A stretch of DNA of 42,509 nucleotides from positions 1 through 42,509 of the forward strand of contig JANQMA010000010.1 of the NCBI GenBank assembly GCA_028280285.1. The letters run 5' to 3'. This document shows, in pieces, positions 818 to 42,509 of this stretch. Made by a program: the position numbers and the translations under genes. The notes beneath the pieces are model-generated. The model had not been told where the DNA came from, made no database searches, and saw only the letters and a program-made list of their open reading frames with translations. This stretch comes from Candidatus Omnitrophota bacterium (lineage in GTDB: Bacteria > Omnitrophota > Gorgyraeia > Zapsychrales > Zapsychraceae). The stretch's first letter is position 1; every line of letters starts with the position of its first letter.

Positions 818-2332
818 ATGGATACATATAACCTAATTAATCAAACGGCTACTCAATACGCCCAAAAATCTGCCTTGATATTCAACGGCGAGGCGGTCAC
901 TTTTACCCAAATTCAGTCCAATGTTCACCGATTAGCCAATGCCTTAAGAAGCTGTGGGGTGGCCAAAGGTGAGAAAGTGGCGATTTATCTGCCTAATTGT
1001 CCTGAGTATGTTTATAGTTATTTGGCTGTGTTCACGCTCGGCGCCGTCGGCGTTCCGTTGGATTTTATGCTTAAAAGTGATGAGCTGATTTCATGTATTA
1101 GTCACTCTGAAGCCAAAGTGATTATCGGTTTGTCGCATGGAGAGGTTTCTTTATCGAATGTGGCCGATGCGGTGAGTACGGTTGAGACGATTATTTCTGT
1201 TAAACCGGGTGAAGGTCAGTTTTACGGCGAGTTGGTGGCGAGTCAAGATGAGGCAATTGATGAGGTTAAGGTTGAGGATCAAGATCCCGCACTTATTATG
1301 TACACGTCGGGCACGACGGGAAAGCCGAAGGGGATACTGCTTAATTATAAACATTTGACCGGCTCTCCACAGGCCATGCATCACTTTGTCGATTTGACCG
1401 ATCAAGATGTTAAGATTTGCGCTATTCCGCTGAGTCACATCGGCGGCTTTATTTATATTCAAAATTGTTTACTTTTCGGCATCACGCTCATCCTTATGGA
1501 CCGGTTCAACCCGGTTAAATTTTTATCTCTGGTGCAAGAGCATAAGGTCACATGTTTTCATATTGTCCCGCCTATGTATAATGCGCTTTTGACGCTTAAA
1601 TCAATTGATAAATATGATCTCAGTTCCCTGCGCTGGGTGGTGGTGTTTGGGGCGCCGAGTTCGCCTGAGATTATGGCGCGGTTCCACAAATATTGCCCGA
1701 ATGCGCGTCTTCTCAATGGTTGGGGGATGACCGAAACGTGCCCGCCTAACACAGTTACTCCACTTGATAGCGATAATATTGCCAGTGTTGGCAAGGTTGT
1801 TCCCCATTGCACTATTAAAATAGTGGATGATGAGGGAAATTCACTCCCTATTGGCGAATCCGGGGAAATTGTCATAAGTGGTTGGATTGTCATGGATTGT
1901 TACTATAAAGACCCTGAGGCAACGGCGCTGGCGAAACGGGAAGATGGCCTTTATACAGGCGATATCGGCCGGTTTGATGAAGAAGGCTTTTTGTATATTG
2001 TGGGGCGTAAAAAAGAGATGATCAAAGTCGGCGGGCAGATTGTTTATGCCCCGGAGATTGAGAATGTGCTTCAGCAAAATGAACAGATTGCGGAAGCAGC
2101 GGTCATCGGTGTTTCGGATGAGATGCGTGGTGAGGTGGTTAAGGCCTTTGTTGTGTTGCAAGAAGGGGTTGATTTGGGCGAAGATGAGATACGATTTTTC
2201 TGCAAAGATAGATTGGCGAATTTTAAAGTGCCGCAGCATGTCGAAATTAGGCAAGAATTGCCGAAGAATCGGACGGGGAAAATAGATAAAAGCATATTGA
2301 AAAACAAACATAGTGATACAGTGATACAGTGA
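818..2332 (+). CDS. Acyl/aryl-CoA ligase (AMP-binding, ANL superfamily)
   Basis: A 504-residue adenylate-forming enzyme that should activate a carboxylic acid as acyl-AMP and then transfer it to CoA or an ACP. The P-loop-like motif MYTSGTTGKPKG is at residues 161-172. It also has the GWGMTE core, the YTGDIGRFDEEGFLYIVGR hinge region, and the C-terminal PKNRTGKID with the conserved lysine. The length is typical of medium-chain or aryl-CoA ligases. It is the first gene after the promoter/operator at 698-749 and, with the PKS genes downstream, could load a starter acid; the substrate cannot be read from sequence. The last residues (SDTVIQ) are encoded by the left arm of the hairpin repeat at 2311-2393, so the repeat supplied the current stop codon. 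No strong Shine-Dalgarno sequence is seen before the ATG. Confidence 0.88.
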   Translation: MDTYNLINQTATQYAQKSALIFNGEAVTFTQIQSNVHRLANALRSCGVAKGEKVAIYLPNCPEYVYSYLAVFTLGAVGVPLDFMLKSDELISCISHSEAKVIIGLSHGEVSLSNVADAVSTVETIISVKPGEGQFYGELVASQDEAIDEVKVEDQDPALIMYTSGTTGKPKGILLNYKHLTGSPQAMHHFVDLTDQDVKICAIPLSHIGGFIYIQNCLLFGITLILMDRFNPVKFLSLVQEHKVTCFHIVPPMYNALLTLKSIDKYDLSSLRWVVVFGAPSSPEIMARFHKYCPNARLLNGWGMTETCPPNTVTPLDSDNIASVGKVVPHCTIKIVDDEGNSLPIGESGEIVISGWIVMDCYYKDPEATALAKREDGLYTGDIGRFDEEGFLYIVGRKKEMIKVGGQIVYAPEIENVLQQNEQIAEAAVIGVSDEMRGEVVKAFVVLQEGVDLGEDEIRFFCKDRLANFKVPQHVEIRQELPKNRTGKIDKSILKNKHSDTVIQ

Positions 2333-2393
2333 TAGAAGTGATACCGGCGGCGAATGGATATCGCTTTATCACTACTATCACTCTATCACTTCT
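2311..2393. repeat. Hairpin repeat, GTGATA family (8-nt period)
   Basis: The left arm repeats AGTGATAC/AGTGATAG about four times. The right arm repeats TATCACTA/TATCACTC about three times and pairs with it. The left arm encodes the last codons and stop of the ligase gene. The same family recurs at 11095-11165. Confidence 0.85.
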
Positions 2394-8193: not shown

Positions 8194-9663
8194 ATGAAAG
8201 TACTATTTCTAACACCACCACTCAAGGCGTGGGATTCACACGGGTATCATTTGGCCGCTAATCAAATGCATGCGCAGTTGGCTGCTTATTTAAGAGAAAA
8301 GGGTATCGCCGAAGTTGACGCACTTGATTGCCGGGCGGATGAAGTGGATTGGGATGGTATGGTGAAATATGCCCAGGAAACAAAACCGGATATGGTTTTT
8401 GTCGGAGAGCTTCTGCACTCGACGTGTGGAGCGGCGGTGATTTGGTATTTTAATGAAGGTCTGCGTTTGATTAAAGAGGCGATGCCGGAGGTGATAACGG
8501 TGGCCGGCGGTCTGTGGTATTCCGGTGATGCGGAGAGACAACTGCGTCTTAATCCGACGATTGATTATATTATGCTCGGTGAAGCAGAGCTTACGCTTGA
8601 AGATTTGATCAATAACAAAAAAGACCCAAAGGTCGATGAGCGTGAGATTCCAGGACTCGTGTCTCGCCGGGAAGACGGCACGATTGTATTCGGTCCGCAT
8701 CGTGATTTGATTCCTGATCTTAATGTTCTGCCGATGCCGGCATACGACCTTTTTCCGATGACAAAATATGTGGGGCATACATACTGGAAACCGTTTGCCG
8801 AGATGATGACGTCCCGCGGTTGCCCCGGCAAGTGCCATTTCTGTTATGAATGGGCGCTCTATGATTCGCGTACGGCATCCCAAGACTTTACGTCGTGGCG
8901 TGGGCTCAAAGGTAAACGTATCGTTGATGAATTAGATATTTTGGAGAAAGAATACGGCATCACAACCGTTGTTATGCAGGATGATGCGTTTAACAGTGAT
9001 ACCGAGGCGATGATTGAATTCTGTGAAGAAAAGATCAAGCGCGGTAATAAAATCCAATGGGTGTGTTTAGGCCGTGCCGATCAATGGGTTTCACAGCATG
9101 ACATTTTGCCTTTAATGAAAAAGGCAGGGTTATTTCTTGCGCTGACCGGTGTTGAGGTTGAGGACGATATGACTTTAACTAAACAGGGCAAAGGTGTAAC
9201 TGTTGATCAAATAAAGAAAACGATTAAAATCCTTCGCGAAAATGATATCGGAAGTGTAGGAACGGTTTTAATCGGTTTAAGAGATGATGATGAAGCAAAG
9301 ATCAAAGAGCGTTTACGTGTCGCCGATGAAATCGATCCGGATATTTTTGCGTTGGATTATTTAACACCGGTACCGAATTCGCCGGATTGGAAATACGGAA
9401 TTAAACAAGGCTGGTTTGATCCGGATACGATTGATCTTAAGGTATGGGATTTTCAACACCCCGTAATCCCGACGGACCATTTATCGATTGAAGAAGTGGG
9501 CCGTTTGGGCGCGTGGTGTATGCGCGAATATTATTCCAAGCCGGAACGTATTCACCGTATTTTTTCAAGTAACTATGATGAGAAAGTTAAATTATGCGTG
9601 AAGGATTTTATGGATAATATTTCCAAATGGGAAGCTAACTCGAGGGTGCAGGCAAATACGTAA
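8194..9663 (+). CDS. Cobalamin-binding-domain radical SAM enzyme
   Basis: A 489-residue protein. The N-terminal ~150 residues have the B12-binding Rossmann pattern (MKVLFLTPPLKAWDSHGYHL, CRADEVDWDGM, VAGGLWYSGDAE, DYIMLGEAELTLEDLI). The radical SAM core follows, with the [4Fe-4S] motif TSRGCPGKCHFC (C210, C214, C217). This is the BchE/HpnJ-like class, whose members include methylases and ring-forming enzymes. Each turnover can release 5'-deoxyadenosine. GGAG at 8184 places the start at the ATG at 8194, not the ATG at 8179. The next gene is a PCP_red-like protein, a pairing that fits this class. It lies directly upstream of the PKS genes, so tailoring of a polyketide is plausible; the reaction is not predictable. 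Confidence 0.85.
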   Translation: MKVLFLTPPLKAWDSHGYHLAANQMHAQLAAYLREKGIAEVDALDCRADEVDWDGMVKYAQETKPDMVFVGELLHSTCGAAVIWYFNEGLRLIKEAMPEVITVAGGLWYSGDAERQLRLNPTIDYIMLGEAELTLEDLINNKKDPKVDEREIPGLVSRREDGTIVFGPHRDLIPDLNVLPMPAYDLFPMTKYVGHTYWKPFAEMMTSRGCPGKCHFCYEWALYDSRTASQDFTSWRGLKGKRIVDELDILEKEYGITTVVMQDDAFNSDTEAMIEFCEEKIKRGNKIQWVCLGRADQWVSQHDILPLMKKAGLFLALTGVEVEDDMTLTKQGKGVTVDQIKKTIKILRENDIGSVGTVLIGLRDDDEAKIKERLRVADEIDPDIFALDYLTPVPNSPDWKYGIKQGWFDPDTIDLKVWDFQHPVIPTDHLSIEEVGRLGAWCMREYYSKPERIHRIFSSNYDEKVKLCVKDFMDNISKWEANSRVQANT

Positions 9664-9665
9664 AA

Positions 9666-9729
9666 TGTGGTCCGTGGTCGGTGGTCTGTGATCCGAAACA
9701 GCCCACAGAGCACAGAACACAGATCACAA
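9666..9729. repeat. Hairpin repeat, GTGGTCT family (7-nt period)
   Basis: Left arm GTGGTCC-GTGGTCG-GTGGTCT-GTGATCC; right arm of CACAGAG/CACAGAA/CACAGAT units. It is the most frequent family in the window, with copies at 10014, 12442/12889, 14183, 14505, 21682 and one arm at 24331. Confidence 0.88.
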
Positions 9730-9738
9730 GAGGTAAAA

Positions 9739-10017
9739 ATGCAAGACACAAATACACAATTAAAGTGGGAAGAAAAAGCAAAAAAGAAATATAAAACAAT
9801 GGTTGAGAATATCCCGCTATTTCATCGGGAGATTGCGAAGACCGTTGTGAATAAAAAGGCCGAGCTCCTTGCCAAAGACCGCGGATCGGAATTGATCGAG
9901 GAAGAAGATATTGTCCGTGCGTTTTTTGCCGAAGTGCCCATGACTTTTTATAGTTTAATGATTCGCCTGCTTGAACAGTCGGGGTTTGATTACAAAAGGT
10001 ACCAAGATAAAGAGTGA
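9739..10017 (+). CDS. PCP_red-like small protein
   Basis: A 92-residue protein starting at the ATG at 9739, with AGAGG about 7 bp upstream; an earlier in-frame start would lie in the hairpin repeat. It matches the proto-chlorophyllide-reductase C-terminal domain (PCP_red): an N-terminal W followed by a helical stretch, IPLFHREIAKTVVNKKAELLAKDRGS, then an acidic IEEEDIVRAF helix. In that family the domain binds substrate next to an iron-sulfur reductase. Stand-alone copies are found beside radical SAM genes, as here. The C-terminal 25 residues (FYSLMIRLLEQSGFD) go beyond the usual domain. Its stop codon lies at the first bases of the next hairpin repeat. It probably assists the radical SAM enzyme; this is inferred from position. 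Confidence 0.65.
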   Translation: MQDTNTQLKWEEKAKKKYKTMVENIPLFHREIAKTVVNKKAELLAKDRGSELIEEEDIVRAFFAEVPMTFYSLMIRLLEQSGFDYKRYQDKE

Positions 10018-10075
10018 TCTGTGGTCGGTGGTCTGTGATCTGAAACAGACCACGGACCACGGAACACAGACCACA
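10014..10075. repeat. Hairpin repeat, GTGGTCT family (7-nt period)
   Basis: Left arm GTGATCT-GTGGTCG-GTGGTCT-GTGATCT, loop GAAA, right arm CAGACCAC-GGACCAC-GGAACAC-AGACCAC. The TGA stop of the PCP_red-like gene is part of the left arm. Confidence 0.9.
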
Positions 10076-11090: not shown

Positions 11091-11094
11091 AAGG

Positions 11095-11165
11095 AGTGAT
11101 AGAGTGATAAAGTGCTAGAGTGATAATTCAAATATCACTGTATCACTACTATCACTATATCACTT
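11095..11165. repeat. Hairpin repeat, GTGATA family (8-nt period)
   Basis: Left arm AGTGATAG-AGTGATAA-AGTGCTAG-AGTGATAA; right arm TATCACTG-TATCACTA-CTATCACTA-TATCACT. Same family as 2311-2393. Confidence 0.88.
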
Positions 11166-12442: not shown

Positions 12443-12475
12443 TTGTGGTCTGTGTTCTGTGGTCTGTTGTCTAAA
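12442..12475. repeat. Split hairpin, left arm (GTGGTCT family)
   Basis: GTGGTCT-GTGTTCT-GTGGTCT-GTTGTCT begins 2 bp after the KS-alpha stop. Its pairing partner is not adjacent but lies at 12889-12917, beyond the four-helix-bundle gene. Confidence 0.8.
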
Positions 12476-12486
12476 ATTTTAATTTC

Positions 12487-12526
12487 TACCCCCAAAAAGA
12501 AAATAAATAATCAAAACAGGGGGAGA
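12487..12526 (+). promoter_or_regulatory. Stem that buries the ribosome-binding site of the four-helix-bundle gene
   Basis: CCCCC (12489-12493) can pair with GGGGG (12519-12523), and flanking TCT with AGA adds three pairs around one bulged A. GGGGGAG is the Shine-Dalgarno sequence of the ATG at 12529. The loop is A-rich. The same arrangement precedes the second four-helix-bundle gene at 42233-42254. Confidence 0.55.
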
Positions 12527-12528
12527 AA

Positions 12529-12879
12529 ATGAAAATTAGAAGCTTTAAAGATTTAAACACATGGAAAAAGTCACATGAATTAGTTTTAGAAATTTATGGA
12601 ATAACTAAAAATTTTCCAGATGAAGAAAAGTTTTGTTTGGCTAGTCAAATTAGACGATCGGCAATTTCAATCAGCGCGAATATTGCTGAAGGATATATGA
12701 AAAGCCGAAAGGATTTTATAAGATATCTTGATATATCAAGAGGATCGCTGGAGGAAACAAAACAGCATCTTATTTTGAGTAATGATTTAGGTTATTTACA
12801 AAATAAGCAATTTGAACAATTATTTGATTTAGCTGAAGATGTAGGGAAAATGATTTACGGTTTGCGTTCAAAATTATAG
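12529..12879 (+). CDS. Four-helix-bundle protein (23S intervening-sequence type)
   Basis: A 116-residue protein of the four-helix-bundle/S23 family (PF05635, TIGR02436). Typical signatures are FKDLNTWKKSHELVLEIY at the N terminus, FPDEEKFCLASQIRRSAISI, then SANIAEGYMKSRKDFIRYL and a C-terminal helix. Relatives are encoded in intervening sequences of 23S rRNA genes and, as Avd, in diversity-generating retroelements, where they bind nucleic acid. Base composition is more AT-rich than the PKS genes around it. The gene interrupts the KS-alpha/KS-beta pair and lies between the two arms of a heptamer hairpin, so it appears to have been inserted into, or to have arisen with, that repeat. No 23S function is implied by its place here. 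Confidence 0.9.
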   Translation: MKIRSFKDLNTWKKSHELVLEIYGITKNFPDEEKFCLASQIRRSAISISANIAEGYMKSRKDFIRYLDISRGSLEETKQHLILSNDLGYLQNKQFEQLFDLAEDVGKMIYGLRSKL

Positions 12880-12888
12880 CTTTCATAT

Positions 12889-12917
12889 ACGATCACAGAC
12901 CACGGACCACAGATCAC
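12889..12917. repeat. Split hairpin, right arm (GTGGTCT family)
   Basis: GATCACA-GACCACG-GACCACA-GATCACA is the complement of the left arm at 12442-12475. Together they flank the four-helix-bundle gene as inverted repeats about 415 bp apart. Confidence 0.8.
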
Positions 12918-12944
12918 AAAATTACACAAAAATAGAGGAATTAC

Positions 12945-14182: not shown

Positions 14183-14243
14183 TGTGATCTGTGGTCTGTG
14201 CTCTGTGATCAGACAGAACACGGACCACGGACAACAGACCACA
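14183..14243. repeat. Hairpin repeat, GTGGTCT family (7-nt period)
   Basis: Left arm GTGATCT-GTGGTCT-GTGCTCT-GTGATCA; right arm AGAACAC-GGACCAC-GGACAAC-AGACCAC. Confidence 0.9.
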
Positions 14244-14501: not shown

Positions 14502-14504
14502 TAT

Positions 14505-14563
14505 GTGATCTGTGGTCTGTGTTCTGTGATCAAACAGAACACGGACCACGGACAACAGACCAC
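14505..14563. repeat. Hairpin repeat, GTGGTCT family (7-nt period)
   Basis: Left arm GTGATCT-GTGGTCT-GTGTTCT-GTGATCA; right arm AGAACAC-GGACCAC-GGACAAC-AGACCAC. Nearly identical to the copy at 14183-14243 and on the other side of the ACP gene. Confidence 0.9.
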
Positions 14564-18494: not shown

Positions 18495-18561
18495 GTGTTT
18501 AAAGTTTAATGTTTAATGTGTGTAAATCTTGGTTAAACTTTAAACAATAAACATTAAACAA
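18495..18561. repeat. Hairpin repeat, GTTTAAT family (7-nt period)
   Basis: Left arm GTGTTTAAA-GTTTAAT-GTTTAAT-GTGTG; right arm TTAAACTTTAAACAATAAACATTAAAC. Confidence 0.85.
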
Positions 18562-21681: not shown

Positions 21682-21742
21682 TGTGATCTGTGGTCTGTGT
21701 TCAGTGATCTGAGCACAGGTCACCGACCACCGAACACTGATA
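21682..21742. repeat. Hairpin repeat in the rRNA spacer, GTGGTCT family
   Basis: Left arm GTGATCT-GTGGTCT-GTGTTCA-GTGATCT; right arm GAGCACAG-GTCACC-GACCACC-GAACACTGAT. It ends 4 bp before tRNA-Ile, so the repeat is tolerated inside the rRNA precursor. The rest of the spacer (21428-21681) shows no gene. Confidence 0.88.
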
Positions 21743-21825: not shown

Positions 21826-21890
21826 GTAGCGTACAGTTTCTAGCGGTTAGCGGATAGTTATTTCTAAACGCTATACGCTGAACGCTAATG
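21826..21890. repeat. Hairpin repeat between tRNA-Ile and tRNA-Ala, AGCGTTT family
   Basis: Left part GTAGCGTACAG-TTTCTAGCGG-TTAGCGG; right part CTAAACG-CTATACG-CTGAACG-CTAA. It is the same family as 5899-5975. Confidence 0.82.
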
Positions 21891-22240: not shown

Positions 22241-22360
22241 ACTACAATTTCTACTAAATAGTAATGTCAAGCTACTAAGAGTTTATGGTGGATGACTTGG
22301 TAGATTCAGGCGATGAAGGACGTGGTAAGCAGCGATATGCTTCGGGGAGTTGCAAGCAAA

Positions 22361-22393
<33 letters not shown>

Positions 22394-23405
22394 ACCCAGG
22401 GTTATACCTGGGTATCCTAAAGTGAATACATAGCTTTGGGAGGCGAACGTGGCGAATTGAAACATCTAAGTAGCCACAGGAAGAGAAACCGTAAGGGATT
22501 CCCCCAGTAGCGGCGAGCGAAAAGGGAACAGGCTAAACCAACGCGTTTACGTGTTGGGGTTGCGGGACTACAATGTGGGACTCAGAGAGGTAGTCGAAGT
22601 GTTTGGAAAATCACACCAAAGAGGGTGAAAGTCCTGTAGACGAAACTTCGAAGAGCCCTAGTAGGATCCCAAGTATGGCGGGGCACGGGAAACCCTGTCA
22701 GAATCTAGCCCGACCATGGGCTAAGCCTAAATACTCGAATCTGACCGAAAGTGAACCAGTACCGTGAGGGAACGTTGAAAAGAACCCCGGGAGGGGAGTG
22801 AAATAGAACCTAAAACCATAAACTTACAAGCGGTCGAAGCCCTATGTCCGCCACACTTCGTGGCGGGAACGGGTGACGGCGTACCTTTAGCATAATGGAC
22901 TGACGAGTTAATGTATGTTGCAAGCTTAAGGACTTCTGGTCCGCAGGCGTAGCGAAAGCGAGTGTGAATAGCGCGACAAAGTAACATGTATTAGACGCGA
23001 AGCCAAGTGATCTATCCATGGCCAGGTTGAAGCTTTGAGAAATCAAAGTGGAGGACCGAACCCACCTAGGTTGAAAACTGGGGGGATGAGCTGTGGATCG
23101 GAGTGAAAGGCTAATCAAACTTGGTAATAGCTCGTTCTCCCCGAAACAGTTCTAGGACTGGCCTCGAGTAAAGAGGATAGCAGGGGTAGAGATACTGATT
23201 GGGCTAGGGGGCACACCAGCCTACCAACCCCAACCAAACTCCGAATACTGCTATCTGTTCCTCGGGAGTTAGACCGTGCGGGCTAAGCTGCACGGTCGAA
23301 AGGGAAACAGCCCAGACCATCGGTTAAGGTCCCTAATATACACTAAGTGGTAAAGGAAGTGAGATCACATAGACAGCCAGGATGTTGGCCCAGAGGCAGC
23401 CATCA

Positions 23406-23442
<37 letters not shown>

Positions 23443-24223
23443 TTGCGCCGAAAATGATCGGGGCTCAAGTGTATAACCGAAACCATGGCTTCACTATAAT
23501 CTGCGGATTATATGAGGGGTAGGGGAGCGTAGTACTAAGCGTTGAAGGCATACCGTGAGGAGTGCTGGAGTAAGTACTAGTGACTATGTCAGTATAAGTA
23601 GCGAAAACTACGGCGAGAAACCGTAGCACCGAAAATCCAAGGTTTCCTGGGGAAGGTTAATCCGCCCAGGGTTAGTCGGGCCTAAGGCGAGGCCGAAAGG
23701 CGTAGTCGATGGACAACAGGTTAATATTCCTGTACTAGTTATATTTGTTATTCTTATCGTGACGGATGAGGATAGGTGATGCAGACTGTTGGATATGTCT
23801 GTCTAAGCGTGTAGGGTTGGTGGCGACATCAATCAGAGGCGCGATGGGGACTCGATTCTACGGATGAGGGGAAGTCACTGATTCCATGGTTCCAAGAAAA
23901 GCCGGTAAGCTAGGATATAACTACCCGTACCGTAAACCAACACAGGTAGATACCCAGAATATGGGAAGGTGCTCGAGATAACTCTTCTTAAGGAACTCGG
24001 CAAAATTGCCCCGTAACTTCGGGATAAGGGGTGCCTTCTGATTGTAGAGCTTCGCGCTCAAAGGTTGGGAGGCCACAGTAAAGACGCTCGGGCGACTGTT
24101 TAGTAAAAACACAGCACTCTGCGAAGTCGAAAGACAATGTATAGGGTGTGACACCTGCCCGGTGCTGGAAGGTTAAGTGGAGCGGTTATCCTCTTGAAGG
24201 AGAAGCTGCGAAATGAAGCCCCA

Positions 24224-24258
<35 letters not shown>

Positions 24259-24722
24259 GAATTTGTTGCCTTAGTAAAATTAGGCTATATGCCGGAACGT
24301 CCCAGTATCCGAATGTACTCGACGATGAATAGTGGTCAGCGATCAGTGTTCTGTGGTCAGTAAAAATCATATCGGTGGGGATAATCGGCAGGAAAGACTG
24401 AATTCTTAGGAGGTGAACATGTTAATAAAAATGTTGACCTGACGCGCTTCTAATCTAACAAATGGCATCTAAAATGCACGAAGCGGTGAAATACCGATTA
24501 GAAGGCAATAAAAATAAGTAGCAAATAATCGTGTTCTACTCGCGTTTTATTTTTTAATAATTCAGAATCCTCAGAGACTACACGCCTAACACTAATTATT
24601 TTTTAGTGAAGATATAGTCCGAACTGCATGGCGACATGTAGAGTTAGATAGAAATGTCTAACCGCCATATGAAAACTTATTCGCAAGTTTTCATGTTTTA
24701 ATGGTCATTAAGTAACAGAATG
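24259..24722 (+). other. Group I intron in 23S at position 1931
   Basis: The exon CCTAAGGT is cut from AGCGAAATTCCTTG by 464 nt. Group I hallmarks are seen. The exon CTAAGGU pairs with the internal guide GCCTTAG at 24268-24274 through six Watson-Crick pairs and a U-G wobble at the splice site. The intron ends in G (24722). A conserved R element (TCAGAGACTACA near 24571) and S element (AAGATATAGTCC near 24609) are present. No endonuclease reading frame exists, so the intron relies on self-splicing or is no longer mobile. The site is the known bacterial L1931 site. A single heptamer-repeat arm is embedded at 24331-24361. Confidence 0.88.
24331..24361 (+). repeat. Heptamer repeat arm inside the group I intron
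   Basis: GTGGTCA-GCGATCA-GTGTTCT-GTGGTCA is a GTGGTCT-family arm without a partner arm. It sits upstream of the recognisable R and S elements, so probably in a peripheral region. Confidence 0.7.
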
Positions 24723-25377
24723 AGCGAAATTCCTTGTGGGGTAAGTTCCCACGCGCACGAATGGTGTAACGACTTGAGCACTGTCTCAAGGAGAGACTCG
24801 GCGAAATTGTAGTGGCGGTGAAGATGCCGCCTACCCGCATCAGGACGAAAAGACCCCGGAACCTTTACTGCAACTTGATATTGAATTTGAGTCCTATTTG
24901 TGTAGGATAGGTGGGAGACTATGATGTCGTCGCGCTAGCGGCGATGGAGTCATTGGTGAAATACCACCCTGATAGTATTTAAATTCTAATTCCGTCCCGT
25001 GAATCCGGGCGTGAGACAGTGTCAGGTGGGCAGTTTGCTTGGGGCGAGTCCCTTCTAAAACATAACGAAGGGGTCCAAAGGTTCCCTTAGGTCGGTTGGC
25101 AATCGACTTTAAAGTGTAAAGGCATATGGGAGCTTAACTGTGATTCCGACAGGAAGAACAGATAGGAAACTAGGGCTTAGTGATCCGGTGGTAGATTATG
25201 GGATTGCCATCGCTCAACGGACAATAGGTACTCCGGGGATAACAGGCTGATAGCGTTTGAGAGTTCATATCGACAACGCTGTTTGGCACCTCGATGTCGG
25301 CTCATCTTATCCTGGGGCTGAACAAGGTCCCAAGGGTCCGGCTGTTCGCCGGTTAAAAAGGTACGCGAGCTGGGTTT

Positions 25378-25409
<32 letters not shown>

Positions 25410-25742
25410 ATGTGGGCGTTCGATGCTTGAAGGAGATAGTTCTCTAGTACGAGAGGACCGAGAACTACAGACCTCTGGTGTTCCAGTTGTCCTGCCAAGG
25501 GCAATGGCTGGGTAGCTACGTTTGGAAGGGATAACCGCTGAATGCATCTAAGTGGGAAGCCAACTTCAAGATTAGGCATCGTAGATCTTTGATCAATAGA
25601 CTCCTTGTAGATTACGAGGTTGATAGGTCGCATGTGTAAGACCCGTGAGGGTTTCAGCTAAGCGATACTAATAAGTCGAAAGCTTGACTTAAATATTACT
25701 ATTTAGGCTTTTTCCGTTATTTTCATTACATGATTGTCGTGT

Positions 25743-25834
25743 TCTAGTTGTTAGTAATTAGCGATTGGCGATTAGCTTTTATTTTGCTTAATTCTTCGTC
25801 TCACTAACTTCTAACAACTAACAGCTAATTTCTA
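25743..25834. repeat. Hairpin repeat in the 23S-5S spacer
   Basis: Left part TCTAGTTG-TTAGTAA-TTAGCGA-TTGGCGA-TTAGC; right part CTAACTT-CTAACAA-CTAACAG-CTAATTTCTAGA. The 7-nt period is visible. It is present in the rRNA precursor between 23S and 5S. Confidence 0.78.
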
Positions 25835-34655: not shown

Positions 34656-34809
34656 GAGGTTAGAAAATGTTAAAAGAGGTTGGAAGATGTTTGAAAAGGT
34701 TTAAGGTTGTTTAATGTTGCTTAAAGTTGTTTAACATAACCTTTGGTAACCTGAAAAAACCTTAAATCCTTTTTAACCTTTTCGAACATTTTTAAACCTT
34801 TTCCAACTT
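34656..34809. repeat. Large hairpin repeat, GGTTTAA family
   Basis: The longest copy, about 154 bp. The left arm is built of GGTTAGAAAATGTTAAAA, GTTTGAAAAGGTTTAA and GTTGTTTAATGTTGC-type units. The right arm has AACCTTAAATCC, TTTTTAACCTTTTCGAACA and TTTTTAAACCTTTTCC. It separates the plus-strand RND gene from the minus-strand gene and may end both transcripts. Confidence 0.75.
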
Positions 34810-34818
34810 TTGATTCGC

Positions 34819-41197: not shown

Positions 41198-42184
41198 ATG
41201 ACTAAAAATATTGCAATTACTGGTGTCGGGGCATATTTGCCTGAAAAGGTATTGACCAATCATGATTTGGAGAAGATGGTTGATACGACCGATGAGTGGA
41301 TTGTCACGCGCACCGGGATTCGCGAGCGGCGTATTGCCGGCGAGGATGAAAAGACTTCCGTGCTTGCCGCGCGGTCTGCCCAGGCTGCGCTGGATGATGC
41401 GGACCTGAAAGCAGAGGATGTTGATTTAATTATCGTAGCGACGATATCACCGGACAGTAATTTTCCATCCGTGGCATGCCTTGTTCAAAAAGAAATTGGA
41501 GCGGCCAAGGCGGCGGCCTTTGATGTGAGTGCGGCGTGCTCGGGTTTTCTTTATGCACTGACAACCGCCAAACAATTTCTTACCGGTGGTTTATATAAAA
41601 ATGCGCTTGTGATTGCAGCGGAGAATATTACGTCACTTGTGGATTGGAATGACCGCTCCACATGTGTGCTCTTTGGTGATGGCGCCGGGGCGTGTGTGAT
41701 TCAAGAGGCAGACAATGGGTCGGAGGCAAAAATTTTATCTGACTATCTGCATGCCGAAGGGCAGTATGGTGAACTGATGGAAGTCAAGATGGACTGGCGC
41801 AAGCCCCTTGATCAGCAAACCTCCGAGATGGCGCTGCCGATGATTAATATGCAGGGTCAAGAGCTGTTTAAGGTGGCGGTTAACTCGATGGCTGAGGGGG
41901 CTGAAATCGCCGTTAAAAAAGCCGGGCTTAAATTAAGTGATATTAAATGTGTTGTTCCGCATCAGGCGAATGACCGTATTATATCCGCGGTGGCCAAAAA
42001 GCTTAAGATGCCGAAGGAAAAGATTTTTATCAATATTCATAAATACGGTAATATGTCGGCGGCATCGATCGCGGTTGCTTTATGCGAGGCGGTCAAAGAC
42101 GGCACCATTCAAAAAGGCGACTATGTCGTCCTTGTCACATTTGGCGCGGGGCTTGTCACAGCGGCGAATGTTGTGAAATTCTAG
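41198..42184 (+). CDS. fabH: Beta-ketoacyl-ACP synthase III
   Basis: A 328-residue KASIII that starts fatty acid chains from acyl-CoA and malonyl-ACP. The Cys of the triad is in FDVSAACSGFLYAL, the His in VVPHQANDRII and the Asn in INIHKYGNMSAASIAVAL; all are normal. It follows plsX as in many bacteria. It is the housekeeping initiator and is not part of the type II PKS set, though starter supply to that set cannot be ruled out. Confidence 0.95.
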   Translation: MTKNIAITGVGAYLPEKVLTNHDLEKMVDTTDEWIVTRTGIRERRIAGEDEKTSVLAARSAQAALDDADLKAEDVDLIIVATISPDSNFPSVACLVQKEIGAAKAAAFDVSAACSGFLYALTTAKQFLTGGLYKNALVIAAENITSLVDWNDRSTCVLFGDGAGACVIQEADNGSEAKILSDYLHAEGQYGELMEVKMDWRKPLDQQTSEMALPMINMQGQELFKVAVNSMAEGAEIAVKKAGLKLSDIKCVVPHQANDRIISAVAKKLKMPKEKIFINIHKYGNMSAASIAVALCEAVKDGTIQKGDYVVLVTFGAGLVTAANVVKF

Positions 42185-42189
42185 AAAAA

Positions 42190-42220
42190 TTTGTTTATTG
42201 TTTAAAGTTTAAAGTTTAAA
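42190..42220. repeat. Hairpin repeat, left arm only (GTTTAAA family)
   Basis: TTTGTTTATT-GTTTAAA-GTTTAAA-GTTTAAA lies just after fabH. Its partner arm is not in the window; by analogy with 12442/12889 it is expected after the four-helix-bundle gene that follows. Confidence 0.65.
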
Positions 42221-42232
42221 AAGTGCTCGATT

Positions 42233-42254
42233 TCCTCCTTAAGAAAAAGGAGGA
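42233..42254 (+). promoter_or_regulatory. Stem that buries the ribosome-binding site of the second four-helix-bundle gene
   Basis: TCCTCCTT (42233-42240) pairs perfectly with AAGGAGGA (42247-42254) across AAGAAA. AAGGAGGA is the Shine-Dalgarno sequence of the ATG at 42258. Compare 12487-12526. Confidence 0.65.
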
Positions 42255-42257
42255 ATT

Positions 42258-42509
42258 ATGAAATATAGTGGTTTTGAATTTGATTTTGAAAGATTAGAGG
42301 TTTATAAGAAATCTATTAAATTGGCTGATTTTGCTTTTACTCTTGCAAAAACCTTTCCAAAAGAATTACAATACTCCCTCGGAGACCAATTTAGAAGAGC
42401 AGCATTATCAATATGCAACAATTTGGCTGAGGGCAGCAGGAAAAGAGGAAAAAGTAAGGAACAATTTTACGGATATGCGCTCGATTCAGCTCGCGAATGT
42501 ATTCCTATT
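42258..42509 (+). CDS. Four-helix-bundle protein (partial, runs off the window)
   Basis: The first 84 residues of a second four-helix-bundle/S23-family protein: FERLEVYKKSIKLADFAF, then FPKELQYSLGDQFRRAALSI and SICNNLAEGSRKRGKSKEQF. The typical FPxE...L..Q.RRA..SI.xNIAEG core is present. It is from a different subgroup than the copy at 12529 (about one third of residues in common by eye). It lies after a hairpin arm and behind a perfect 8-bp stem over its Shine-Dalgarno sequence. Codon use is AT-rich. The C-terminal helix is outside the window. Confidence 0.88.
   Translation, partial: MKYSGFEFDFERLEVYKKSIKLADFAFTLAKTFPKELQYSLGDQFRRAALSICNNLAEGSRKRGKSKEQFYGYALDSARECIPI

Follow-up and report, generated by a model that had tools for sequence, protein, structure and literature searches.

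What is a tract of tandem seven-base repeats doing directly upstream of a gene for a four-helix-bundle protein, and do the repeats and the gene belong together? The question is raised by the right-hand end of a 42,509-nt stretch of DNA from a Candidatus Omnitrophota bacterium (contig JANQMA010000010.1), which was analysed as a whole and is referred to here as the window. To our knowledge, S23/IVP four-helix-bundle genes are scattered over bacterial genomes and have no agreed function. A preliminary description, made from the sequence alone, had noticed a lone GTTTAAA arm followed by such a gene. It had suggested that, if a partner arm lay just past the window, two independent cases with different heptamers and different proteins would share one layout.

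Results

The element at the window end

The features at the end of the window are the following:
41198..42184, + strand: fabH (3-oxoacyl-ACP synthase III), upstream of the element (PF08541/PF08545, open reading frame)
42193..42220, + strand: 5' arm of four tandem heptamers, GTTTATT-GTTTAAA-GTTTAAA-GTTTAAA (sequence, TRF)
42232..42255, + strand: 9-bp perfect stem TTCCTCCTT / AAGGAGGAA burying the Shine-Dalgarno AGGAGG at 42248-42253 (RNA fold)
42258..42509, + strand: four-helix-bundle gene of PF05635/TIGR02436, first 84 codons, open 3' end (profile matches)

The fabH gene stops with TAG at 42182-42184 and the heptamer tract starts nine bases on. The element follows fabH and does not lie inside the 23S rRNA gene. 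TRF assigned 3.0 copies to the 42193-42220 tract (100% match, score 42). Lone GTTTAAA heptamers occur in the window at chance level (16 seen versus 13.5 expected). The tandem form TTTAAAGTTTAAAGTTTAAA, with up to 3 mismatches, had 49+48 matches in the genome versus 1+1 for the reversed control, and is not there by chance. The arm can pair in part with itself, TTTAAA being palindromic, and it has a minus-strand match with 2 mismatches on its own bases. RNA folding of the 42232-42255 stem gave -13.1 kcal/mol (z = -3.5), with an unpaired probability of 0.00 for the Shine-Dalgarno. The gene fragment matched PF05635 (E = 1.8e-19, 70.3 bits, cut-off 33.8) and TIGR02436 (E = 1.2e-16, 60.9 bits, cut-off 24).

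No complementary arm is present in 42221-42509, and the lone arm with its four-helix-bundle gene was thus found as the preliminary description had it. The window is a complete contig (C42 of this genome, G000) and the gene is truncated by the contig end. A search of the genome, 93% of which is present, did not find fabD, and the sole other genomic fragment matching the missing C-terminus did so at chance level (E = 0.5). The partner arm is therefore out of reach in this assembly. A 3' arm is expected beyond the contig end, the relatives of this gene being flanked on both sides.

The window holds a second, complete element:
12443..12467, + strand: 5' arm TTGTGGTCTGTGTTCTGTGGTCTGT (inverted-arm search)
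12489..12523, + strand: CCCCC/GGGGG stem burying the Shine-Dalgarno of the 12529 gene (fold -10.6 kcal/mol, z = -2.2)
12529..12879, + strand: complete four-helix-bundle gene, 116 aa, between two ketoacyl-synthase genes (PF05635, E = 8e-39; TIGR02436)
12895..12919, + strand: 3' arm ACAGACCACGGACCACAGATCACAA, complementary to 12443-12467 (inverted-arm search)

The 12529 gene reached 132.6 bits with PF05635 and 124.6 bits with TIGR02436 (cut-offs 33.8 and 24). Its whole element is predicted to fold, as RNA, into one stem-loop with the arms paired (z = -6.4). The two four-helix-bundle genes of the window share 30% protein identity and carry different heptamers, which bears out their earlier assignment to different subgroups. 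Burial of the Shine-Dalgarno is not general (p = 0.5 over all genes) and is seen in a subset that includes both window elements.

Inverted heptamer arms around PF05635 genes

There are six PF05635 genes in this Omnitrophota genome, and all five with readable flanks sit between inverted tandem-heptamer arms. The five heptamers are all different (GTGATCA, TGTGGTC, AATTGGT, TAGCGTA type, and GATCCTA/GATACTT type). Our survey covered 37 genomes from the family and order of this one; 28 of these, this genome not counted, had a match above or near the cut-off. This survey gathered 93 genes, 91 of them with testable flanks. At an arm score of at least 28, taken as the threshold, 68 of the 91 genes in the own and related genomes were armed, compared with 11 of 120 other ORFs from the same loci (Fisher p = 1e-23). 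Flanks swapped between genomes gave a null with a median of 18 and a 99th percentile of 29. The autocorrelation of the arms was 0.47, 0.41 and 0.36 at lags 7, 14 and 21, versus a background of 0.25-0.28, and among the 68 armed elements the best single lag was 7 in 47 and 8 in 14.

Relatives of the 42258 protein from the whole phylum (44-68% identity) were armed in 23 of 29 cases, and heptamers were visible by eye in most of the remainder. Sister-subgroup relatives from named genomes of about a dozen phyla reached a score of 28 in 56 of 80 cases (null from swapped flanks: 95th percentile 23, 99th percentile 31). These 80 genes came from Omnitrophota, Atribacterota, Planctomycetota, Bacteroidota, Bacillota, Patescibacteria, Elusimicrobia, Pseudomonadota, Desulfobacterota, SAR324, Nitrospirae and others. 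On cyanobacterial plasmids, too, PF05635 genes are armed; their heptamers, GGGAACA and AGGGTGT among them, are cyanobacterial ones. Roughly one gene in four has no arm above the threshold; such genes mostly belong to divergent subgroups or lie at contig ends. Inverted heptamer arms around PF05635 genes are thus a general rule. The shared layout of arm, gene and complementary arm, anticipated from two cases, recurs with different proteins and heptamers in each of these four samples, and the 42258 case itself remains incomplete.

Some arrangements depart from a period of seven or from inversion. Period-8 arms of the AGTGATAA and AGTTGACG types occur in the window (2312-2390 and 11094-11164) and at L052, L086, L274 and L297. 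At window positions 34656-34811 a region resembling a hairpin repeats every 10 bases (AGGTTGGAAA type) and not every 7, and a four-helix-bundle gene of a relative (G016:C41:9628) lies between arms that resemble it. Four-helix-bundle genes of different subgroups are clustered within a few kb on G016:C41 (L059, L085, L088, L138), G024:C24 and G029:C32. On a Pseudanabaena galeata plasmid (L350, 2007-2366) cas6 and cas4 are separated by a four-helix-bundle gene that has long AAAAGCT tracts to either side of it, which point the same way and are not inverted.

Arms follow the protein lineage

A Mantel test over all pairs revealed no correlation between arms and proteins (rho 0.01). The test is flat because arm similarity saturates below about 50% protein identity, and the comparison was therefore limited to closely related proteins whose genes occupy non-homologous sites. 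Such pairs from different genomes, with a protein identity of at least 60%, had a mean arm score of 11.2, compared with 5.4 for distant pairs; a score of at least 9 was reached by 66% of the former and 5% of the latter. With the arms of the same pairs in reversed orientation the mean was 4.7, equal to background, so that the likeness is confined to the same orientation. When arms were permuted among genes, the observed mean was reached in 0 of 2000 permutations. Among pairs at least 65% identical with judgeable sites, 27 of 33 were at non-homologous sites, and certain orthologous insertions were common to different genera. Judged from these comparisons, arms and gene are one unit by common descent; the likeness of the arms does not show binding.

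These results bear on the possibility that two unrelated things have been brought together, heptamer arrays born by slippage and small genes that chance to lie in repeat-rich intergenic regions. In many bacteria no long simple repeat is as common as the heptamer, and polymerase slippage has been given as the cause (PMC4692102, PMC4679880); the copy number of the repeats does differ between related plasmids (L348 versus L349). Slippage, however, yields direct repeats and no complementary array across a gene. It is further contradicted by arms that match their own partner and not swapped partners, by arms that track the protein lineage at non-homologous sites, and by the other ORFs of the same loci, which lack paired arms. 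We regard a chance association of this kind as very improbable.

Comparison of occupied and empty sites

The presence or absence of elements at otherwise conserved sites was seen in the fabH-fabD gap and at two plasmid sites. The fabH-fabD gap was compared in 30 relatives. A gene-bearing element occupies it in seven genomes, this one among them, and the heptamer differs from genome to genome; several relatives have gene-less heptamer tracts or hairpins there, and in many the gap is a few to about 60 bases long and without repeats. Different element subtypes occupy the gap in different genomes.

On a Calothrix brevissima plasmid an element separates an integrase gene from the gene after it. On plasmids of Aulosira laxa, Tolypothrix and Nostoc carneum that are about 90% identical in the surrounding sequence the site is empty, with 3 nt from stop codon to ATG. 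A second site, on Nostoc plasmids, is empty, or holds only a hairpin (GGGAAC, in a 97% identical plasmid), or is gene-bearing. At plasmid site B the boundaries lie within the 3-nt gap and no target-site duplication was resolved; over the site comparisons neither a target-site duplication nor an exact donor-target pair was resolved. The mobility of the elements is inferred from comparison, and no transposition was observed.

Gene-less hairpins and period-7 tracts

Tracts were counted in 20 stretches of this genome (398 kb), runs of N being excluded. The sample contained 119 period-7 tracts and no more than 13 of any other period from 5 to 13. With the window included (440 kb), 164 tracts lay outside elements, and the six resident elements had 21, 27, 11, 10, 5 and 29 cognate gene-less tracts among them; the arm at 42193 has 29 similar gene-less period-7 tracts in the 440 kb. 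The arms of 63 foreign elements, compared with the same 164 tracts, had a median of 0 (p = 9e-6). Samples of seven genomes lacking the gene yielded 2 tracts in 240 kb, and samples of seven other, gene-rich genomes 17 in 324 kb (p = 0.004, pooled). These densities rest on few contigs per genome, unevenly sampled and dominated by G000, and the tracts are not independent.

Gene-less hairpins are found within the window, among them some of the families of both window elements (strand not assigned):
18496..18561: gene-less hairpin, GTTTAAA-type family of the 42193 arm (TRF, genome matches)
14183..14242, second copy 14504-14563: gene-less hairpin, TGTGATC/TGTGGTC family of the 12529 element (TRF)
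21682-21741, 21829-21888 and 25745-25830: rRNA spacer hairpins (16S-tRNA, tRNA-tRNA and 23S-5S)

Gene-less hairpins with arms 10-30 bp apart and of the same heptamer families look like derivatives of gene-bearing elements. The handedness of gene-less GTTTAAA hairpins was rejected as a diagnostic, since both senses occur among the genome matches. Nearly identical TGTGATC-type hairpins come in pairs about 300 bp apart (9663-9732 with 10014-10075, and 14183-14242 with 14504-14563), as if the arm pair or its surroundings had been duplicated. Each of the three rRNA operon spacers holds a gene-less heptamer hairpin, and the three hairpins belong to three different resident families.

Protein, orientation and selection

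Matches to solved structures were 2gsc (E = 2e-31) and 2rld (E = 1e-16), with five chains per entry; 2GSC is the structure of XCC0516, a PF05635 protein of X. campestris. Purifying selection acts on the protein, with dN/dS values of 0.03-0.24 where dS could be estimated; the pairs are diverged and dS is near or beyond saturation. Elements were co-oriented with both neighbours in 73 of 81 cases (90%), compared with 531 of 717 ordinary genes (74%, p = 0.0009), and none of the 81 was opposed to both neighbours, compared with 45 of the 717 (p = 0.01). The excess in sense orientation over ordinary genes is only moderate, and these too are seldom opposed to both neighbours.

Strong purifying selection and sense orientation in operons are what might be expected of a host-useful or domesticated protein. 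Its hairpins would then be regulatory, as terminator, RNase III site or translational switch, and it would be inherited vertically with an occasional move along with its operon. The hairpin-buried Shine-Dalgarno of both window elements and the orthologous insertions common to different genera are in keeping with such a protein. Vertical inheritance is hard to reconcile with the patchy presence among close plasmids, with the differing subtypes in the fabH-fabD gap, with the 27 of 33 decidable pairs at non-homologous sites, and with matching gene-less hairpins in many copies. We consider a domesticated protein unlikely, without dismissing it.

Y1_Tnp genes were found in 29 of the 37 genomes. A third possibility is that the elements are non-autonomous and MITE- or REPIN-like and owe their movement to an enzyme acting in trans, either a Y1/RAYT transposase or a reverse transcriptase; the four-helix-bundle gene would be a passenger or accessory. 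Avd, a homologue of the protein, is a DGR accessory, and the 12529 protein matches Avd models weakly (DivGenRetAVD E = 2e-9, below the cut-off; bAvd sub-threshold). Against this, RVT_1 was not found in G000 and is present in only 8 of the 37 genomes, Y1_Tnp was not found in several element-rich genomes (G034 with 6 elements, G011 with 5), and heptamer identity tracks the four-helix-bundle lineage. A reverse transcriptase or a Y1 transposase as universal partner was rejected, since the distributions are inconsistent with it, and mobilisation in trans as a whole seems to us distinctly unlikely.

Discussion

The reading that we prefer takes the 42193-42220 arm together with the 42258 gene as the left-hand portion of a small mobile element, in which protein and arms stand in a relation like that of RAYT and REP. 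We consider this likely, the binding and the chemistry being inferred. The complete element would measure about 450-500 bp and consist of a left arm of 3-6 degenerate heptamers, one PF05635 gene and a complementary right arm. Elements lie in sense orientation inside operons, and read-through would therefore give an element RNA that forms one long stem-loop. The protein is inferred to recognise, in RNA or in single-stranded DNA, the stem or the heptamers that belong to its lineage, and may protect or process what it recognises. Such recognition could let the element and its gene-less hairpins spread, as RAYT relates to REP. We know of no catalytic domain in the PF05635 family. Because of this, and because neither reverse transcriptase nor Y1 transposase is consistently present, the DNA-joining step would be supplied by the host.

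The nearest relative of the elements is the 23S rRNA intervening sequence (IVS). An IVS lies inside the 23S gene and is cut from the transcript by RNase III, and IVSs with an S23/IVP ORF occur in Coxiella, Leptospira and Haemophilus. What they share with the elements described here is a PF05635 protein whose gene lies within complementary termini that form one long stem, an arrangement met by the 12529 element with its paired arms. The Coxiella IVS has tandem GACAGAT heptamers just before the S23p ORF and a 28-bp terminal stem (PMC4990558). In contrast to IVSs, the elements here are found between protein genes; their heptamers are many and lineage-specific, and numerous gene-less hairpins of the same heptamers accompany them. 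They are not strict IVS members because they are not in rRNA.

The 23S gene of the window (22265-25691) does contain an insert of about 467 nt (about 24254-24720, near model position 1954) without a long ORF. It was rejected as an IVS, having no heptamer arms and a weak group I intron match instead: the Rfam group I intron model matched 24414-24641 (E = 2e-7, 36.3 bits against a gathering score of 50), making the insert a candidate group I intron on the strength of that match. A c-di-GMP-II riboswitch match inside the same gene (24905-24974, 26.5 versus 53.5 bits) is most likely due to chance.

REP/REPIN-RAYT systems likewise have a gene within inverted repeats of its own lineage type and many matching gene-less genomic copies. 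RAYT, however, is a Y1 HUH nuclease (PF01797), whereas the elements here encode PF05635 only (bAvd sub-threshold), and REP is a single short hairpin with a tetranucleotide tag, whereas tandem heptamer arrays are found here. With Avd the likeness is a homologous four-helix bundle, BPP-1 Avd (4DWL) and PF05635 (2GSC) being homologous (PMC10053308). Avd nevertheless needs a reverse transcriptase, which in a DGR is linked to it along with template and variable repeats, and RVT_1 was not found in this genome; heptamer arms and gene-less hairpins are not features of DGRs.

Heptamer simple repeats have been described from cyanobacteria, Beggiatoaceae (TAACTGA) and Xanthomonas (GGGAATC, 70-75 inverted pairs) as intergenic, tandem and often in inverted pairs, with no known mechanism of origin or transfer (PMC4679880, PMC4692102). 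A four-helix-bundle gene is not mentioned in these two reports. In an open-access library we found no paper that connects heptamer arms with four-helix-bundle genes; the search did not extend to subscription journals or preprints, and for this reason the novelty of the association is provisional.

In its widest form our proposal is that these are pan-bacterial minimal elements, whose only protein, a non-enzymatic four-helix bundle, would recognise lineage-specific tandem-heptamer stems and spread gene-less hairpins with the same heptamer; the elements would be the source of much of the heptamer excess in bacterial genomes, and IVSs would be the subset of them that landed in rRNA. On this wider claim we find ourselves evenly balanced between acceptance and doubt. 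A mobile element whose sole protein lacks a known catalytic domain would need the DNA-joining machinery of its host. Genes annotated as '23S rRNA IVP' appear beside CRISPR arrays in large surveys (PMC10910872). If the proposal is true, the element would explain this linkage, for which the L350 gene between cas6 and cas4 may account. The elements also offer an explanation of why seven-base repeats are so puzzlingly abundant in bacteria. Genes and repeats would be two halves of one element, and both puzzles would therefore become testable: the protein would gain a predicted ligand, the heptamer stem of its own element, and the repeats a predicted source.
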